A stretch of 64,000 bases of DNA. Origin: Bacteroidota bacterium (GTDB taxonomy: Bacteria > Bacteroidota > Bacteroidia > Flavobacteriales_E > Vicingaceae). The DNA lies in contig JABFGJ010000001.1 of the NCBI GenBank assembly GCA_013112545.1, positions 434,001 through 498,000 on the forward strand. The letters are read 5' to 3'. Positions 11,168 to 23,239 of the stretch are shown in pieces. Under the pieces are notes generated by a model. That model had not been told where the DNA came from, did not search any database, and saw nothing but the letters and a program-made list of their open reading frames with translations. Position numbers and translations under genes: made by a program. Position 1 is the first letter of the stretch. Every line of letters begins with the position of its first letter.

Positions 11168-13096
11168 TTAATTCTCCAAAATAACAAACTCCGTTCTTCT
11201 GTTGGTTTTTCTACCTTCTTCCGTTTCATTATCTGCTACTGGTTGTGTTTCGCCATATCCCTTTGCTTGTAGTTTTTCTGATTTAATTCCAGCCTTAACT
11301 AAATAATCTCGAACCGACTTAGCTCGTTCGTGAGACAACTGCATGTTAGCATCATCTGAGCCAACATTATCGGTATGGCCGCCTACCTCAACAACCATTT
11401 TCGAATTGGCTTTCAATAATTCAACTGCTTTGCCCAACTCTATATAGCTATCTTGAGTTAATACAGCGCTTCCTGTCTCAAAGAATATATTGTTTAATAC
11501 TACGCGAGCCCCTTTCTCTATTGGTTCAAGTTTTATGTGCTTTATAAACTCCTCATATTTAGCAGTTTCCTCCACCTCAAACTTATTGGAATAAAAGAAA
11601 AACCCTTCTTTGTTTGCCGACACACTATAATTTCTTCCTGAAGGCAATACTACTAAGTACTCTCCAGATTCAGAATTGCTTTTGGCTGTTGCGATTAACT
11701 CGCCAGTATTAATATCTTCTACCAACACCCAAGCGTCTATATATTCATTGTTTTTGGCATTTTTTACCTCGCCTTTTACAATTACCGATGGTTTTGGTCT
11801 TAGTTCGTCGGGCAAATCAATGGAATATATATCCAATTTTCCGGCTCCACCTCTATTGGATGCAAAAAAAGCGCTTTCTCCACTAGCCGAAATCGTAAAA
11901 TAAGTGTCTTCTCCAGATGAGTTTAAAGGTGCTCCAAGATTTTTAGGACTTGACCATCTCCCATTCTCAAACACACTAACAAATAAATCATAAGAACCAT
12001 AACCTGGGTGTCCTTCAGAAGCAAAATATAAGGTTTTCCCATCTGGAGCCAAATAAGGGCTTTTTTCACCAAAAGGTGTATTAATAATCGGCCCTAAATT
12101 TTCAGGCACCCCCCATTGTCCAAATTTGTTTTTTCGGCTTATAAAAATATCCATGCTTTCGTTATACGTCCCTTTTCTACCCGACACAAATGCCAATGTT
12201 TGACCATCAGAAGCTAAGCAGGGTTGAGAATCCCATTCTTCATTGTTTACTACGTTTCCCAAGTTAATCGGCTTACTCCATTCGTTACCGTTAAGTTCAC
12301 ACAAGTATAAATCACAACTACCAATTCCTTCATCGTCACCACATTTAACATAAATCATTTCTTGTCCATCTGCCGAAAAAGTTGAAGTTCCATCATTATC
12401 GTATGAATTAATTGGCTCTGGTAATAATTTCGGAACAGACCATTGTCCGTTTACTTTTTCTACAAAATATAAATCTTCGCCCCAGTCATTTTCTTCGTCT
12501 TCATCAACTTTATCTAGGCCGCCTTTTCTGTTGCTGGTAAAGTATAACCTGGTTCCCGTTGGGTCAATTTGGGGCATCATGTCATCAGAAACGGAATTAA
12601 TCGCTGAACCGAGATTAACAGGATCAGGCATGCTATTTTTTAATTTCCTAACTGCAATGGATTGCTTGGCATAATTTAATTTATATGCCGCTTTGTGATG
12701 ATAAACTGTCAAGTTTGGTTTTTGCGAATATCCATCTAAAAACTTCTGAAAATCAATACTTGCATTTTCTAAGTCACCTATTTCTATATTTGAATTTCCT
12801 CGAATATAAAAGTACCATGCCGAATAGTCCGGATTAGATTGCTCTAAACGATTAAATGCCTCTACAGCTTTAGCGTGCTTCCCTAAATCCGAATAGGAAT
12901 AACCTAAATAACACAGAGCGTCGCCATGCGTTGCATCTTTTTCAAGTGCTTTTTCAAATTGTTCTATCGCTGCTTCATAATCATCATCTTCATACAAAAC
13001 TTTACCTTGCTGAAAATAATAATTCCCCATTTGGCTTTGAGCATTCAAAGACAATGAAATTAGAACTATACCGTAGAAAAATAATATCCTTTTCAT
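11168..13096 (-). CDS. TPR / PD40 propeller / CarboxypepD-like / OmpA protein, PorE-like
   Basis: The frame is open to 13129, but the signal peptide starts at the ATG at 13096 (MKRILFFYGIVLISLSLNAQ), giving 642 residues. Domain order: three TPR repeats (from YYFQQGKVLYEDDDYEAAIE), a PD40/WD40-like propeller with repeats such as GTRLYFTSNRKGG, GKTLYFASEGHPGYGSYD and GESAFFASNRGG, a carboxypeptidase-regulatory-like beta domain, and a C-terminal OmpA peptidoglycan-binding domain (VVEVGGHTDNVGSDDANM, LSHERAKSVRDYL). This is the architecture of PorE, the T9SS component that ties the machine to peptidoglycan. Bacteroidota carry several paralogues with the same layout, so the assignment to PorE itself is uncertain. 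The mature N-terminus lacks the lipobox cysteine of P. gingivalis PorE. Confidence 0.75.
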   Translation of the reverse strand: MKRILFFYGIVLISLSLNAQSQMGNYYFQQGKVLYEDDDYEAAIEQFEKALEKDATHGDALCYLGYSYSDLGKHAKAVEAFNRLEQSNPDYSAWYFYIRGNSNIEIGDLENASIDFQKFLDGYSQKPNLTVYHHKAAYKLNYAKQSIAVRKLKNSMPDPVNLGSAINSVSDDMMPQIDPTGTRLYFTSNRKGGLDKVDEDEENDWGEDLYFVEKVNGQWSVPKLLPEPINSYDNDGTSTFSADGQEMIYVKCGDDEGIGSCDLYLCELNGNEWSKPINLGNVVNNEEWDSQPCLASDGQTLAFVSGRKGTYNESMDIFISRKNKFGQWGVPENLGPIINTPFGEKSPYLAPDGKTLYFASEGHPGYGSYDLFVSVFENGRWSSPKNLGAPLNSSGEDTYFTISASGESAFFASNRGGAGKLDIYSIDLPDELRPKPSVIVKGEVKNAKNNEYIDAWVLVEDINTGELIATAKSNSESGEYLVVLPSGRNYSVSANKEGFFFYSNKFEVEETAKYEEFIKHIKLEPIEKGARVVLNNIFFETGSAVLTQDSYIELGKAVELLKANSKMVVEVGGHTDNVGSDDANMQLSHERAKSVRDYLVKAGIKSEKLQAKGYGETQPVADNETEEGRKTNRRTEFVILEN

Positions 13097-13110
13097 CTGT
13101 TTTATAATTA

Positions 13111-13147
13111 AAAAAAGGGGAGCCAACATCTAATGTTTAACTCCCCT
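13111..13147 (-). terminator. Terminator between the propeller operon and the PorE-like gene
   Basis: On the minus strand AGGGGAG pairs with CTCCCCT (13141-13147 with 13116-13122). A second short helix (ACAT/ATGT) lies closer to the loop and a run of T follows. It lies 18 bp after the stop of the PQQ-propeller gene, so that operon likely ends here and the OmpA gene uses its own promoter or read-through. Confidence 0.7.
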
Positions 13148-13164
13148 CATAAATGTGCACTAAC

Positions 13165-16700: not shown

Positions 16701-17357
16701 TTAACTAGCTAAGCCATTCTTGATGGCAAATTTGATCAAACCAGCAATATTATGTGCGTCTAACTTCTTCATTAGGTTGGTTCTATGAGTGTCAACAGTT
16801 CTATGAGAAATAAACAATTGATCTCCAATTTCTTTGTTGGAAAAACCTTCGGCAATTAGTTTTAATACTTCAATTTCTCGCTCAGTTAATTTTGAAAGTT
16901 GTATAGTGTCTGGGTCGATTTCAAAATGTGAGTGCTTTTTAGAATTAGGGTCTAATAGCGTTTGAGTGACTTCTGAGCTAAAGTATGATTTGCCTTTTGA
17001 AACCATATTTAATGCATCACTAAACTCTTGGCGATCTGCGTTTTTTAATAAATATCCATCCGCACCAATCTCCATTACTTTTTTAATCAAAGAAACTTCA
17101 TTATGCATGGTAAGAATAATAATTTTTGAAGCTATTTTAAACTCTTTAATTCTTCTAGTAGCCTCCAATCCATTCATAATAGGCATATCTATATCCATTA
17201 ATACGATATCGGGAATTAAATTCTGAACCAACAAGGCTCCTTCTTTTCCATTTCTTGCAGTGCCGATAATTTCAAATTCCTTCATCTCAGCAACAATGGA
17301 AGTTAGTCCATCTAAAACCAATTGATGGTCATCTACTATGATTATCGACTTAGGCAA
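16701..17357 (-). CDS. NarL/FixJ-type response regulator
   Basis: A 218-residue protein. An N-terminal receiver has the acidic pair in IIIVDDHQ and the phosphoacceptor D55 in VLMDIDMPIMNG, with the usual signalling residues in KIIILTMHNE and GYLLKNADRQ. A C-terminal LuxR HTH follows (LTEREIEVLKLIAEGFSN). The frame offers no ATG before the receiver, so I take the TTG at 17357 as start. The likely partner is the TPR histidine kinase at 18662-20617, whose HisKA_3 type is the one that pairs with NarL regulators. A glycosyltransferase gene on the other strand lies between. Two identical 12-bp AT-rich repeats 22 bp apart lie just upstream. Confidence 0.88.
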   Translation of the reverse strand: MPKSIIIVDDHQLVLDGLTSIVAEMKEFEIIGTARNGKEGALLVQNLIPDIVLMDIDMPIMNGLEATRRIKEFKIASKIIILTMHNEVSLIKKVMEIGADGYLLKNADRQEFSDALNMVSKGKSYFSSEVTQTLLDPNSKKHSHFEIDPDTIQLSKLTEREIEVLKLIAEGFSNKEIGDQLFISHRTVDTHRTNLMKKLDAHNIAGLIKFAIKNGLAS

Positions 17358-18670: not shown

Positions 18671-20617
18671 TGGAATTCTAATTGTCGCTAAAGTGCCTGA
18701 GTTTGGACTTGGTTCTAAATTTATTTCTCCGTTTAATGTGTTCACTCTACTTTTTATGTTCAATAAGCCGTGTCCATTGTTTTCCCCAGCTTTTATTCCC
18801 AAACCATTGTCTTCAATAACAAGTATTATTTTGCCAGCATTTTTAAACAACTGAACAGACACATGGCTGGCCTTTGCATGTTTAATGATATTATTAATTA
18901 GCTCTTGAGCAACCCGATACAAACTAATTTCAATTTTCTCGCTTAACCTTTCATGTAAACTAAAATGTTCGAATTGATAATCAATTTTGCTAATGCCCAA
19001 AGACTTATTCAACATATCTTCTATGGCCTCAATCAATCCCAGTTCTGTTAGAGCTTTAGGCATCATTTGATGCGAAATAGACCTGACCTCATCTGCCGAT
19101 TCCGATAGTATTTTGCTCAGGTTTTCAACTTCTACCGATTTGTCTGGAATTAAACTTTGAATTTCTGTTCCTAGCTTTTGAAATGCCATTTTAAGCCCAC
19201 TTAATTGTTGGCCCACTCCATCATGCAAGTCTTTTGAAATGCGTTTGCGTTCTTCTTCTTGTGCATTAAATACCGCTTGTGTGCCTTTGTCTCTTTCTGC
19301 AATAATCGCCGCATCCTTTTCTGCCTGAGACTTTCTTTTATTCTTTTGCATAATTACAAGAGAACCCAGAACAGCAACTATAATTAGGGCGGCAAAAAGC
19401 AACATCCAGTTTTTGCGATTTGCTGCTATTAGCTCTGCTTCAGCTTTTTCTTTCGCTAATGATTCTGACTTTATTTTTTCTTCAGCCAAAGCTTTTTCTT
19501 TTTCAACGGTTTCATATTTGGTCCTCAACTCAGCAAAACTTTTTGCGTTTTCTTCGTTCAGCAAGCTGTCTTTATAATTCAAGTGCAATACCAAATTATC
19601 ATAAGCAATTTCAAAGTTTCCTTGCAGTTTATTAGTCTCAGCTAGCCCAGCATAAGCCGAACTTATTATGTTCATATACCCATGCTCTTTTGAAATGTTT
19701 AAAGCATCAGTATAATACACTTTCGCTTTAGGGTATCTTTTTTGATTTTTTAATAGCTCTCCCAAATTGACAAATTCTAAAGCAATTCCCCGCTTATTTT
19801 CAAATTTTTCGTGAAAGGCCAATGCTTTTAGATAATAATCTTCTGCTTTTTCATAATCTCCAAAATCATCATACACCCCGCCCAAATTATGGTAAGCTAT
19901 TGTAATATCGCTTAAGTCATTTAATTCTTTACTAATTTCTAATCCTTTCTCATAATATTCTATCGCTTCTTTGTATTCTTTATTATACAAATGAATAGCT
20001 CCAATATTCATATACGACTTTTTAAGTACTTGTTTGTCGCCTATCTCCTCCGTAATCTCTGTTGCCTTTTTTAGGTAAACCAAAGTGTTTTCCATGTCGC
20101 CCATGTAATAATGAACTACACCAACATTATTATACCCTTCTGCTAATCCCTTTTTGTCTCCAATCTTTTTTTCATAATCTATCGCTTCCAAATAGTCTTT
20201 TAATGCTTCATTGTATTCTCCTCGTTGAGTATGAATAATTCCAATGTTGTTAAGCACTATCGCCATTCCTTTATCGTCTTTAGTTTCTATCGAAATCTTT
20301 TTTACAATTTCATAATAAGACATGGCTTCATCAAAATCCCCCTTTCGTTGAGCGCAATTTCCCAATAGGTTGTTGATTTTAATAATCCCTCGGGTATAGT
20401 TTAAGTCTTCGCTTGGTTTTTTTGCTTTTAGAGCATAATGTTTTGTTGAGTCTATATTGATATCAATATAAGCTGATGACAAATTGATGTGAATGTTTAT
20501 TTGAGTGGTATCGCTAACAATTGGGTTTATTAAACCTCTCAAACTGTCGATGTGTGAGCCATTTGCTAAAGCGAATTGGAACGCACAAAAAAGGCTGATA
20601 AAAAGAATTTTTTTCAT
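18662..20617 (-). CDS. TPR-containing sensor histidine kinase (HisKA_3 type)
   Basis: A 651-residue protein. It has a signal peptide (FISLFCAFQFALANG), about seven TPR repeats (residues ~80-345; e.g. GYNNVGVVHYYMGDMENTLV), a coiled coil, one transmembrane helix (residues ~404-422) and a cytoplasmic kinase. The HisKA_3 phosphoacceptor is H465 in SKDLHDGVGQQ and the ATPase domain ends in GHGLLNIKSRVNTL. The TPR region is predicted to lie outside the inner membrane and sense a periplasmic partner. Probable partner: the NarL-type regulator at 16701-17357. The start codon lies inside a terminator-shaped hairpin (20586-20623). Confidence 0.88.
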   Translation of the reverse strand: MKKILFISLFCAFQFALANGSHIDSLRGLINPIVSDTTQINIHINLSSAYIDINIDSTKHYALKAKKPSEDLNYTRGIIKINNLLGNCAQRKGDFDEAMSYYEIVKKISIETKDDKGMAIVLNNIGIIHTQRGEYNEALKDYLEAIDYEKKIGDKKGLAEGYNNVGVVHYYMGDMENTLVYLKKATEITEEIGDKQVLKKSYMNIGAIHLYNKEYKEAIEYYEKGLEISKELNDLSDITIAYHNLGGVYDDFGDYEKAEDYYLKALAFHEKFENKRGIALEFVNLGELLKNQKRYPKAKVYYTDALNISKEHGYMNIISSAYAGLAETNKLQGNFEIAYDNLVLHLNYKDSLLNEENAKSFAELRTKYETVEKEKALAEEKIKSESLAKEKAEAELIAANRKNWMLLFAALIIVAVLGSLVIMQKNKRKSQAEKDAAIIAERDKGTQAVFNAQEEERKRISKDLHDGVGQQLSGLKMAFQKLGTEIQSLIPDKSVEVENLSKILSESADEVRSISHQMMPKALTELGLIEAIEDMLNKSLGISKIDYQFEHFSLHERLSEKIEISLYRVAQELINNIIKHAKASHVSVQLFKNAGKIILVIEDNGLGIKAGENNGHGLLNIKSRVNTLNGEINLEPSPNSGTLATIRIPLS

Positions 20618-20623
20618 CAGCCT
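20586..20623 (-). terminator. Terminator-like hairpin covering the start codon of the histidine kinase
   Basis: On the minus strand AGGCTGAT pairs with ATCAGCCT (20616-20623 with 20592-20599). Five A-T pairs extend the stem inside, and a run of six T follows. The kinase ATG (20617-20615) is inside the 5' arm. It is well placed to end transcription from the acyl-CoA carboxylase gene, but it lies in the first 11 codons of the kinase, so it may act as an attenuator or block ribosome entry. Confidence 0.6.
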
Positions 20624-20705
20624 AAAGTAATATTTAGTATCCTAAAAATAAAATACGTTGATAGTCGTAGATTTAGAATTCTACTTTTTCTGGTTTTTAC
20701 TTATT

Positions 20706-22247
20706 CTACAAAGGAATATTCCCATGCTTTTTCTTTGGTAAAACAGCCACCTTGTTCTCTAACATTTTAAATGCGCGAATCAATTTTTCTCTAGTTTGGT
20801 CTGGTCGTATTACCTCATCAACATAACCTCTTGCAGCAGCATTATATGGATTTGCAAACATCTCAGCATATTCGGCTTCTTTCTCTTTCCATTTAGCTTC
20901 TGAATCCTCTGCTTCTTTTATTTCTTTTTTGAAAATAATTTCGGCCGCTCCTTTAGCTCCCATAACTGCAATTTCAGCAGAAGGCCAAGCATAATTCATA
21001 TCTGCGCCAATGTGTTTCGAGTTCATCACATCATAAGCTCCACCATAAGCCTTTCTTGTAATTACTGTAATTCTTGGAACTGTAGCCTCACTAAAAGCAT
21101 ACAACAATTTCGCCCCATTAGTAATGATGGCATTCCACTCTTGATCTGTTCCTGGTAAAAACCCTGGTACATCCTCAAAAACTAAAAGGGGAATATTGAA
21201 ACAATCGCAAAAACGAACAAATCGCGCCCCTTTAGTTGAACTTTTTATGTCTAATACTCCTGCTAAATAAGCTGGTTGATTGGCAACAATTCCTATTGAT
21301 TTTCCTGCTAATCTGGCAAATCCAACGACAATGTTTTCAGCAAAATCTTTATGAACTTCATGAAAACTATCTCCATCAACTGTATTTGAAATAACTTCAC
21401 GAATGTCGTAAGGTTGATTTGGGTTATCGGGAATTATACTATTTAATTTTTCTCGTTTCTCATTGCCTGCAGTATATGCGATAGATGGAGCATCTTCTTC
21501 ACAGTTTTGAGGAACGTAAGAAAGCAGTTTTTTCAATCCATTGATGCATTCAATTTCATTGGCATAAGTAAAATGTGTAACCCCAGATTTAGTTGAATGT
21601 GCAGACGCACCTCCTAAATCTTCTGAACTTACTTCTTCGTGTGTTACCGTTTTAACCACATTTGGCCCTGTTACAAACATGTATGCAGAACCTTCAACCA
21701 TGCTGATAAAATCGGTTAATGCAGGTGAATAAACTGCCCCACCAGCACAAGGACCCATAATGGCAGATAATTGTGGTATAACCCCACTTGATAAGGTATT
21801 TCTATAAAAAATATCAGCATAAGCGCCTAATGAAACCACCCCTTCTTGAATTCGCGCTCCACCTGAATCATTTAAACCGATAATTGGGGCTCCATTCTGC
21901 ATGGCTAAATCCATCACTTTAACAATTTTTTCAGCATGAGCTTCTGCCAATGATCCTCCCATAATGGTAAAATCCTGAGCAAAAACATAAGTTAACCGCC
22001 CATTAATTGTTCCATACCCAGTAATTACTCCATCGCCTAGGGGTTTGCTTTTATCCAAACCAAAATTATTGCTCCTATGTGTAACAAACATTCCAATTTC
22101 TTCAAAAGAGCCTTCATCCATCAAAAAATGGATGCGTTCTCGTGCAGTTAATTTATTTTTATCGTGCTGAGCCTTAATTCTTTTTTCTCCTCCACCTTGC
22201 TGAGCTTCTTCAATCTTATTGTTTAAGGCATTAATTTTATCTTGCAT
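20706..22247 (-). CDS. Acyl-CoA carboxylase beta (carboxyltransferase) subunit, propionyl-CoA type
   Basis: The frame is open to 22328, but the family starts at the ATG at 22247 (MQDKINALNNKIEEA), giving 513 residues, the usual size. The N-terminal carboxyltransferase half has NDSGGARIQEGV and GPCAGGAVYSPALTDF; the C-terminal half has VFEDVPGFLPGTDQE and ARGYVDEVI. It moves a carboxyl group from biotin to an acyl-CoA, most likely propionyl-CoA, in the cytoplasm. The biotin carboxylase and carrier subunits are not in this window. It is divergent from the carbonic anhydrase gene, which supplies bicarbonate chemistry but need not be linked. Confidence 0.9.
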   Translation of the reverse strand: MQDKINALNNKIEEAQQGGGEKRIKAQHDKNKLTARERIHFLMDEGSFEEIGMFVTHRSNNFGLDKSKPLGDGVITGYGTINGRLTYVFAQDFTIMGGSLAEAHAEKIVKVMDLAMQNGAPIIGLNDSGGARIQEGVVSLGAYADIFYRNTLSSGVIPQLSAIMGPCAGGAVYSPALTDFISMVEGSAYMFVTGPNVVKTVTHEEVSSEDLGGASAHSTKSGVTHFTYANEIECINGLKKLLSYVPQNCEEDAPSIAYTAGNEKREKLNSIIPDNPNQPYDIREVISNTVDGDSFHEVHKDFAENIVVGFARLAGKSIGIVANQPAYLAGVLDIKSSTKGARFVRFCDCFNIPLLVFEDVPGFLPGTDQEWNAIITNGAKLLYAFSEATVPRITVITRKAYGGAYDVMNSKHIGADMNYAWPSAEIAVMGAKGAAEIIFKKEIKEAEDSEAKWKEKEAEYAEMFANPYNAAARGYVDEVIRPDQTREKLIRAFKMLENKVAVLPKKKHGNIPL

Positions 22248-22975: not shown

Positions 22976-23175
22976 ATTCAGTTTAAACGAAACCTTGTTT
23001 TTCTGAAATAAGTATCAGTTGCAATCTCTATTCAAGGAATTAACGTTAATTGCTTCAGTGTACTTTAAAAATTAACATTATACCAATTAAGTTTTTAAAT
23101 GCTGTATAAAATAAGGAGTTGATTTTTTTAAAAACGTAGATTTTGATAGCTAAATCGGTATTAATTAAACTGACA

Positions 23176-23216
23176 TTAAAAACAGCCCATGAATTTGATT
23201 CATGGGCTGTTTTTAA
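23176..23216. terminator. Strong bidirectional terminator between carbonic anhydrase and tyrosine phenol-lyase
   Basis: A perfect 19-bp stem (TTAAAAACAGCCCATGAAT and its complement) with a 3-nt loop, flanked by A on one side and T on the other. The two neighbouring genes converge here. The remaining ~200 bp between it and the anhydrase stop (22976-23175) shows no gene. Confidence 0.9.
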
Positions 23217-23239
23217 TTTTTAAATATTAGGACAAAGAA

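Follow-up and report, generated by a model that had tools for sequence, protein, structure and literature searches.

A terminator-like hairpin across the start codon of a Vicingaceae sensor kinase gene, nested with a probable leaderless promoter

In a 64,000-nucleotide stretch of a Vicingaceae (Bacteroidota) genome (contig JABFGJ010000001.1, positions 434,001 to 498,000; hereafter the window), the gene for a sensor histidine kinase follows that for the beta chain of a biotin-dependent carboxylase, which we take to be propionyl-CoA carboxylase-like, and a T-tailed hairpin lies across the kinase start codon. We interpret this hairpin, with a probability of roughly 60%, as an intrinsic terminator that closes the carboxylase unit while lying nested across the kinase gene's promoter and start codon, and from which the native, leaderless kinase mRNA would escape. 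The parts are ordinary; the arrangement, a stem holding an ATG over a probable leaderless promoter, is unusual and selected. Coordinates are given in Table 1.

Table 1. Features of the carboxylase-kinase junction (window coordinates)
Feature	Position	Strand	Basis and remarks
Sensor histidine kinase, TPR / HisKA_3 / HATPase_c, 651 aa	18662..20617	minus	ORF and domain search
T tract, six T	20587..20592	minus	Sequence
Stem-loop of terminator	20592..20623	minus	Terminator scan, folds, covariation; spans kinase ATG
3' arm	20604-20592	minus	
Loop	20610-20605	minus	
5' arm	20623-20611	minus	
Predicted 5' end of a leaderless kinase mRNA (A of ATG)	20617	minus	From box spacing
-7-like promoter box TACTTTAG	20622..20629	minus	Sequence; 7/8 to TAhhTTTG; exactly 4 nt before ATG
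Dyad TACG-N8-CGTA	20654..20669	minus	Pattern search; 36 nt before ATG; putative LuxR-type operator
Biotin-dependent carboxylase beta chain (Carboxyl_trans)	20706..22247	minus	ORF and domain search; upstream of kinase, codirectional

The hairpin within its own genome

The carboxylase gene, taken to start at the first ATG of its frame (22247), ends in a stop codon at 20708-20706, leaving a gap of 88 nt to the kinase gene and 82 nt between stop codon and stem. The kinase ATG (20617-20615) lies inside the hairpin; alternative kinase starts were rejected, as the N-terminal signal peptide (MKKILFISLFCAFQFALA, a by-eye reading) begins at ATG 20617 and no in-frame ATG lies upstream. The response regulator partner of the kinase is probably encoded at 16701-17357. 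In two other genomes (G009 and G019; loci L160 and L172) a LuxR-type response regulator gene with 55 and 64% identity to this gene directly follows the carboxylase, and the carboxylase neighbourhood of the two-component system is therefore conserved.

The stem comprises 13 pairs, 12 of them Watson-Crick and one G-U, with four of the 13 being G-C, closed by a 6-nt loop; its last base (20592) is also the first T of the six-T tract. Its 5' arm comprises the ATG together with the six untranslated bases before it and parts of codons 2-3, and its 3' arm parts of codons 5-9. Folding of 20586-20630 yields -16.6 kcal/mol, compared with a mean of -3.89 (sd 1.84) for shuffled sequences (z -6.9; 0 of 200 shuffles as good), and the same hairpin forms part of the best fold of the surrounding 131 nt, beside unrelated stems. 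A sequence-only reading of this DNA had described a six-T hairpin running through the kinase ATG and first codons, and that description is borne out by the stem of 13 pairs at 20623-20592. A generic terminator scan proves nothing by itself, returning 7 sites between 15000 and 26000 where 7.3 were expected; the start-spanning hairpin is the second longest of the seven, and the scan found no second terminator-like site in the 88-nt gap. The window also holds a very long terminator-like hairpin (20 pairs, T-rich tail) on the plus strand at 23175-23217, downstream of an ORF that by eye resembles carbonic anhydrase.

Within a sample of its genome the hairpin is typical in energy and singular in position. 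Our own-genome sample consisted of 40 stretches plus the window (858 kb) and contained 661 ORFs of at least 100 aa. Hairpins of -12 kcal/mol or lower cluster in it shortly after stop codons: tests centred at distances of 20-40 nt gave 25, 36 and 26 of them, whereas nine other distances (up to 110 nt) gave 0-5 each. Of 182 codirectional gaps of 40-400 nt, 15 hold such a hairpin, with a median of -16.1 kcal/mol. The kinase hairpin, at -16.1, is the median of those 15 terminators (itself counted) and the only one to reach the next start codon among the 182 gaps. T-tailed hairpins covering an ATG were found at 2 of the 661 ORFs, the second at window position 13129, where the ATG is probably wrong: ATGAAAAGG, 33 nt downstream, is a likely start, and the hairpin looks like an ordinary terminator. 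The kinase hairpin is the sole convincing start-spanning terminator among these ORFs. As for the hairpin at the rejected site, it is strong (minus strand, 13096-13148, about -18 kcal/mol), terminator-like, and directly precedes a TPR/PD40/OmpA gene whose start is likely 13096 rather than 13129.

Such stems are not given by MKK-type starts by themselves, since among the 62 of 661 ORFs that begin with one of four common MKK/MKR codings the median energy of the segment from -6 to +32 is -1.3 and the next best -5.5, compared with -16.2 for the kinase. Upstream hexamers that pair fully with the 3' arms of the five hairpin copies described below occur at 0, 0, 1, 1 and 3 of the 661 ORFs, the kinase's own hexamer counted.

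Distribution among relatives and covariation of the stem

The kinase was searched for in 60 genomes and in 46 genomes of the order, and the carboxylase in the same 46, of which 42 matched, with 30 of these 42 loci read downstream. The carboxylase gene stands directly before the kinase gene in five genomes of the family: our own (G000), G002, G036, G033 and G018. In the first four of these the hairpin covers the kinase ATG, with kinase identities to the window protein of 62% (G002), 60% (G036) and 45% (G033); the G018 pair has no start-spanning terminator. A covariance model built from the four hairpins and run on the 46 order genomes recovered a fifth copy, in G011 (58.5 bits), along with 20 weaker matches (at most 40.7 bits), 15 of which were inspected and proved to be mostly ordinary-looking terminators, a few of them weak. 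The G011 copy spans the start of what is now a decayed remnant of the kinase gene, situated about 0.7 kb past the carboxylase gene. The remnant carries an early stop and a frameshift and aligns with the G033 kinase at 46% across 67 aa and at 74% across 23 aa; in it (L225:1501-2000) the start-spanning hairpin is still intact. All five copies sit below a codirectional carboxylase gene, with small ORFs intervening in G011. The T run measures 6-8 in G000, G002, G036 and G033, exceeding six in the latter three, and is broken by an A in the G011 remnant.

The orthologue in G019 has no hairpin and no carboxylase gene before it; its upstream gene is divergent, so that no carboxylase-type read-through can reach the kinase. 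This single case is more readily explained by a terminator serving the upstream gene than by an attenuator within the mRNA of the kinase itself. A tree of ten kinase sequences groups G000, G002, G036, G018 and G019 together (100/100) and gives G033 no firmly supported place (67/54). The G005 kinase was considered as an orthologue and rejected as a paralogue, since it groups (100/100) with the kinase that G002 and G019 each carry as a second copy; its divergent neighbour and its box TATTTTCG were left out of all counts, and the divergent-neighbour comparison consists of the one orthologue.

Carboxylase-kinase pairs in four genomes of other families (G045, G098, G251, G040) have by eye no T-tailed start-spanning hairpin, G040 showing an irregular ATG-spanning fold (-16.8) without a T tract; in these four genomes and in G018 the two genes may be cotranscribed. 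Inspection by eye of 14 kinase starts from other families, some of them uncertain as starts, revealed no T-tailed start-spanning hairpin. Family kinases with E values of 1e-145 to 1e-101 (G062, G067, G024, G031, G010, G020, G029) were treated as more distant and not counted; in G024, G010, G020 and G031 the kinase start has by eye neither hairpin nor promoter box. A strict hairpin pattern was found in our own genome alone among 295 genomes of the class, which says little on spread because that sample is without G002, G033 and G036. A contig search for kinase homologues, from which near relatives may be absent, gave no close orthologue, the best full-length identity being 39%; 48 of its 79 loci were used, for the dyad count only. 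The relatives in that search, the promoter box and the gene content all point to Bacteroidota.

Alignment of the five hairpins reveals standard pairs in all 65 cells (five sequences by 13 pairs), with both-sided changes in three pairs (six cells) and nine of the 13 pairs invariant, the five sequences being few and related. The covariation score is 0.323, compared with 0.128 in shuffles, and was reached by 1 of 500; slid versions of the alignment pair in 42-63% of cells. Two of the five measures, the number of double-change pairs and of further pair types, were reached by 42 and 87 of the 500 shuffles. Exchanging 5' arms between genomes whose arms differ reduces the fold from between -14.9 and -16.8 to between -7.9 and -11.1 kcal/mol, a cost of 3.8-8.2. 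The stem changes cross codons 7-8 and alter the protein (ATC AGC, GTG AGC and ATA GGC, with ATT GGT in the G011 remnant). Because all pairs form, double changes are compensatory and 5' arm swaps are costly, the alignment indicates that the RNA fold itself is kept by selection.

Promoter box, predicted leaderless start and upstream dyad

The final two bases of the box TACTTTAG are the first two of the stem. At its seventh place the box has an A rather than a T, and a possible reason is that this A is kept as half of the stem's outermost pair. By eye, TAhhTT occurs at -12 to -7 in all seven family starts of this kinase that were examined, namely the five with a hairpin and two without one (G019 and G018), and the final G of the box in six of them; across the five hairpin sequences the invariant columns upstream of the stem are A1 and A3 plus T12, A13, T16 and T17, the latter four being the box. 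One kinase start from another family (G078) has TACATTTG 4 nt before its ATG.

The published Bacteroidota promoter, TAHHTTTG, is reported to have in many cases 4-5 nt to the RNA start (PMC6847099) and to place its box at -12 to -5 (PMC9723704), so that the spacing of the kinase box corresponds to a start at the A of the ATG. Leaderless mRNAs are given as 5.5% of 890 genes in Flavobacterium psychrophilum (PMC9723704), and leaders longer than 10 nt as 87% of the transcripts with a probable promoter in Flavobacterium johnsoniae (PMC6847099), from which leaderless starts appear to be a minority. Within our 661-ORF sample, TAhhTTTG is absent at each of 0-3 nt before the ATG (0, 0, 0, 0) and occurs 9 times at 4 nt, the highest count of positions 0-44 and to be compared with 0, 0 and 1 for three controls; a relaxed box likewise peaks there among positions 0-29, with 17 occurrences at 4 nt after 3, 2, 4 and 0 at 0-3 nt. 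This jump at 4 nt suggests that some genes in the genome are probably leaderless. The nine ORFs themselves (e.g. near 128070, 147369, 235403 and 530224 of G000 C1, 0-based), which by eye include tryptophanyl-tRNA synthetase, TatD-like, glycyl-tRNA synthetase and UvrC-like genes, are probably leaderless genes. The class TAhhTTAG is not clearly enriched upstream of genes (45, versus 25, 51 and 53 for controls), and a generic scan for promoters of the E. coli sigma-70 type was uninformative, with 39 sites where 41.6 were expected.

The predicted start has a large effect on the fold. RNA beginning at the ATG would keep -0.8, -4.1, -1.5 and -3.2 kcal/mol in the four genomes, versus -16.6, -15.4, -17.3 and -16.7 for the longer RNA. 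Were the start just 4 nt upstream of the ATG, a hairpin of -10.8 to -12.7 kcal/mol would remain.

The dyad TACG-N8-CGTA at 20654-20669 is the sole copy in the window, where 0.11 are expected; counted by eye, it stands 35-36 nt before the ATG in four genomes (our own, G002, G036 and G033) and further up, at about 60 nt, in G019. In a set of 83 loci of kinase homologues (555 kb), 19 loci together hold 21 copies with a spacer of 8, compared with 0 to 6 copies for each other spacer from 0 to 19. This count is not independent, the 83 loci including those that suggested the motif and some related pairs, and other half-sites reach 25 at spacer 8; what speaks for the dyad is therefore its profile over spacers and not the number of copies. 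It often lies close to a response regulator gene, and we read it as a putative operator of the LuxR-type response regulator partner. At spacer 8 it is not enriched in the own-genome sample (2 occurrences), and a genome-wide regulon was rejected, with 10 sites in the genome (20654-20669 among them), about 6 expected by scaling and 49 for a reversed control pattern. A six-row alignment of the whole upstream region is poor outside the close genomes. Across Bacteroidota the dyad, often in the form TACGGTAAAAnnCGTAG nn aATTACG, accompanies TPR-kinase / LuxR-regulator pairs (L055:4359, L063:6078, L066:6030, L070:6076, L071:6163, L088:5489, L096:4823, L137:3477), frequently just past the regulator's stop codon and in several cases with a TAnnTTTG-like box about 60 nt on; it is likely a shared operator.

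Proposed mechanism, alternatives and significance

What the sequences themselves show is a hairpin with its T tract, the compensatory changes in it, a box and a dyad at fixed places, and the box peak in the genome sample; from these we infer termination, the start site at the ATG and binding at the dyad. Polymerase reading through from the carboxylase gene would make the whole hairpin and stop 26-31 nt into the kinase gene, on the six T, and in any longer read-through mRNA the kinase start codon would be locked in the stem. The kinase would be transcribed from its own promoter, with the dyad at about -44 and the -7-like box at -12 to -5, and its mRNA would begin at the A of the ATG; lacking the 5' arm, that mRNA could not form the terminator. 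The same 32 bases would thus block foreign transcripts and pass native ones. The sequence-only reading had also considered the hairpin well placed to end carboxylase read-through, and this is supported by the lack of any other terminator-like site in the gap and by covariation among five copies, all below a codirectional carboxylase gene. More tentatively, at odds we would put just short of even, the sequences may describe a filter on transcript origin, in which one element serves as terminator arm, promoter box, start codon and signal-peptide codons and sorts transcripts by the six bases before the ATG, in which selection on the RNA fold has steered codons 7-8, and in which terminating polymerases may pass to the promoter on the same bases. 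Such a hand-over is conceivable because a polymerase that has terminated is reported to be able to remain on the DNA and initiate anew, in most cases in the opposite direction (PMC6978322).

The remaining suggestion of the sequence-only reading, an attenuator in which ribosomes at the kinase start hold the terminator open and so couple translation of the kinase to its own transcription, did not find support, and we regard it as improbable. Leader-peptide attenuators of the trp and pyrBI type place a T-tailed hairpin near a translation start. The kinase hairpin resembles them in this respect, and by covering the ATG it would block both translation and transcription were the mRNA to begin upstream; it differs in that no leader peptide or competing fold is seen and that the translated gene would itself be the regulated gene. 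The minimum and centroid folds of the 131 nt contain no competing antiterminator, and among ORFs of at least 60 aa there is no leader ORF whose ribosome reaches the hairpin; ribosomes on the upstream gene, which stops 82 nt above the stem, should have left. The conserved box predicts an RNA start at the ATG, leaving the kinase's own mRNA without the 5' arm, and the absence of the hairpin from the G019 orthologue, one case, is not predicted by an attenuator of that mRNA. For an attenuator to operate, a ribosome would already have to sit at the kinase ATG by the time polymerase has moved 31 nt on. An E. coli terminator lying 30 bp into an ORF under translation is reported to have lost only about 10% of its efficiency, because the ribosome cannot catch up in time, and terminators more than 30 bp past a stop codon to be at about maximal efficiency (PMC4824070); by this analogy, coupling to kinase translation is unlikely.

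Two further explanations concern the hairpin without any escape or without any function. A plain overlap, in which the hairpin ends carboxylase RNA and the kinase is expressed by read-through or from a promoter further up, its output cut to a fixed fraction as in polar operon attenuation, draws equally on the hairpin, T tract and covariation; the carboxylase-kinase order in other families without a terminator suggests cotranscription there, and a box TATTTTTA stands 25 nt before the ATG in our own genome. That box, however, was not seen by eye in G002, G033 or G036; the one at 4 nt, in contrast, is shared by all, and the G019 kinase, which lies below a divergent gene, retains TAhhTT at 4 nt. 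We consider plain overlap unlikely, while giving it appreciable weight. Chance would have the A/T-rich signal-peptide codons (AAA AAA ... CTT TTT) form a fortuitous hairpin; the inner A-T pairs do derive from the MKK...LF codons and never vary, but covariation of the outer pairs, the modest best energy (-5.5) of the 61 other MKK/MKR starts and the z of -6.9 make this highly improbable.

We return to the nested terminator. It resembles intrinsic (Rho-independent) terminators in its G-C-containing stem, short loop, T tract, position behind a stop codon and an energy equal to the sample median, and departs from them in lying across the start codon of the next gene. The probable promoter resembles those of leaderless Bacteroidota genes (TAnnTTTG, with 4-5 nt to the RNA start) in having a box spaced for a start at the A of the ATG; unlike them, it carries an A at place 7 of the box, and two of its bases double as terminator stem. 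E. coli test constructs in which a terminator lies no more than 100 bp into a coding region (PMC4824070) are similar in that the terminator is close behind the AUG and is expected to work despite translation, although the construct reported there is plasmid-borne and 30 bp after the AUG, whereas here a natural stem contains it. Our literature searches returned no title or abstract opening describing a terminator that spans a start codon or overlaps a promoter; as evidence of novelty this is weak.

If the proposed mechanism is true, compact genomes would be able to keep two codirectional genes apart at the cost of hardly any extra DNA, and leaderless initiation would exempt a native mRNA from a terminator. 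A constraint of RNA structure would act on a signal peptide. The proposal also predicts a searchable class of elements in Bacteroidota and other leaderless groups, namely terminators whose 5' arm straddles an ATG or ends just before it.
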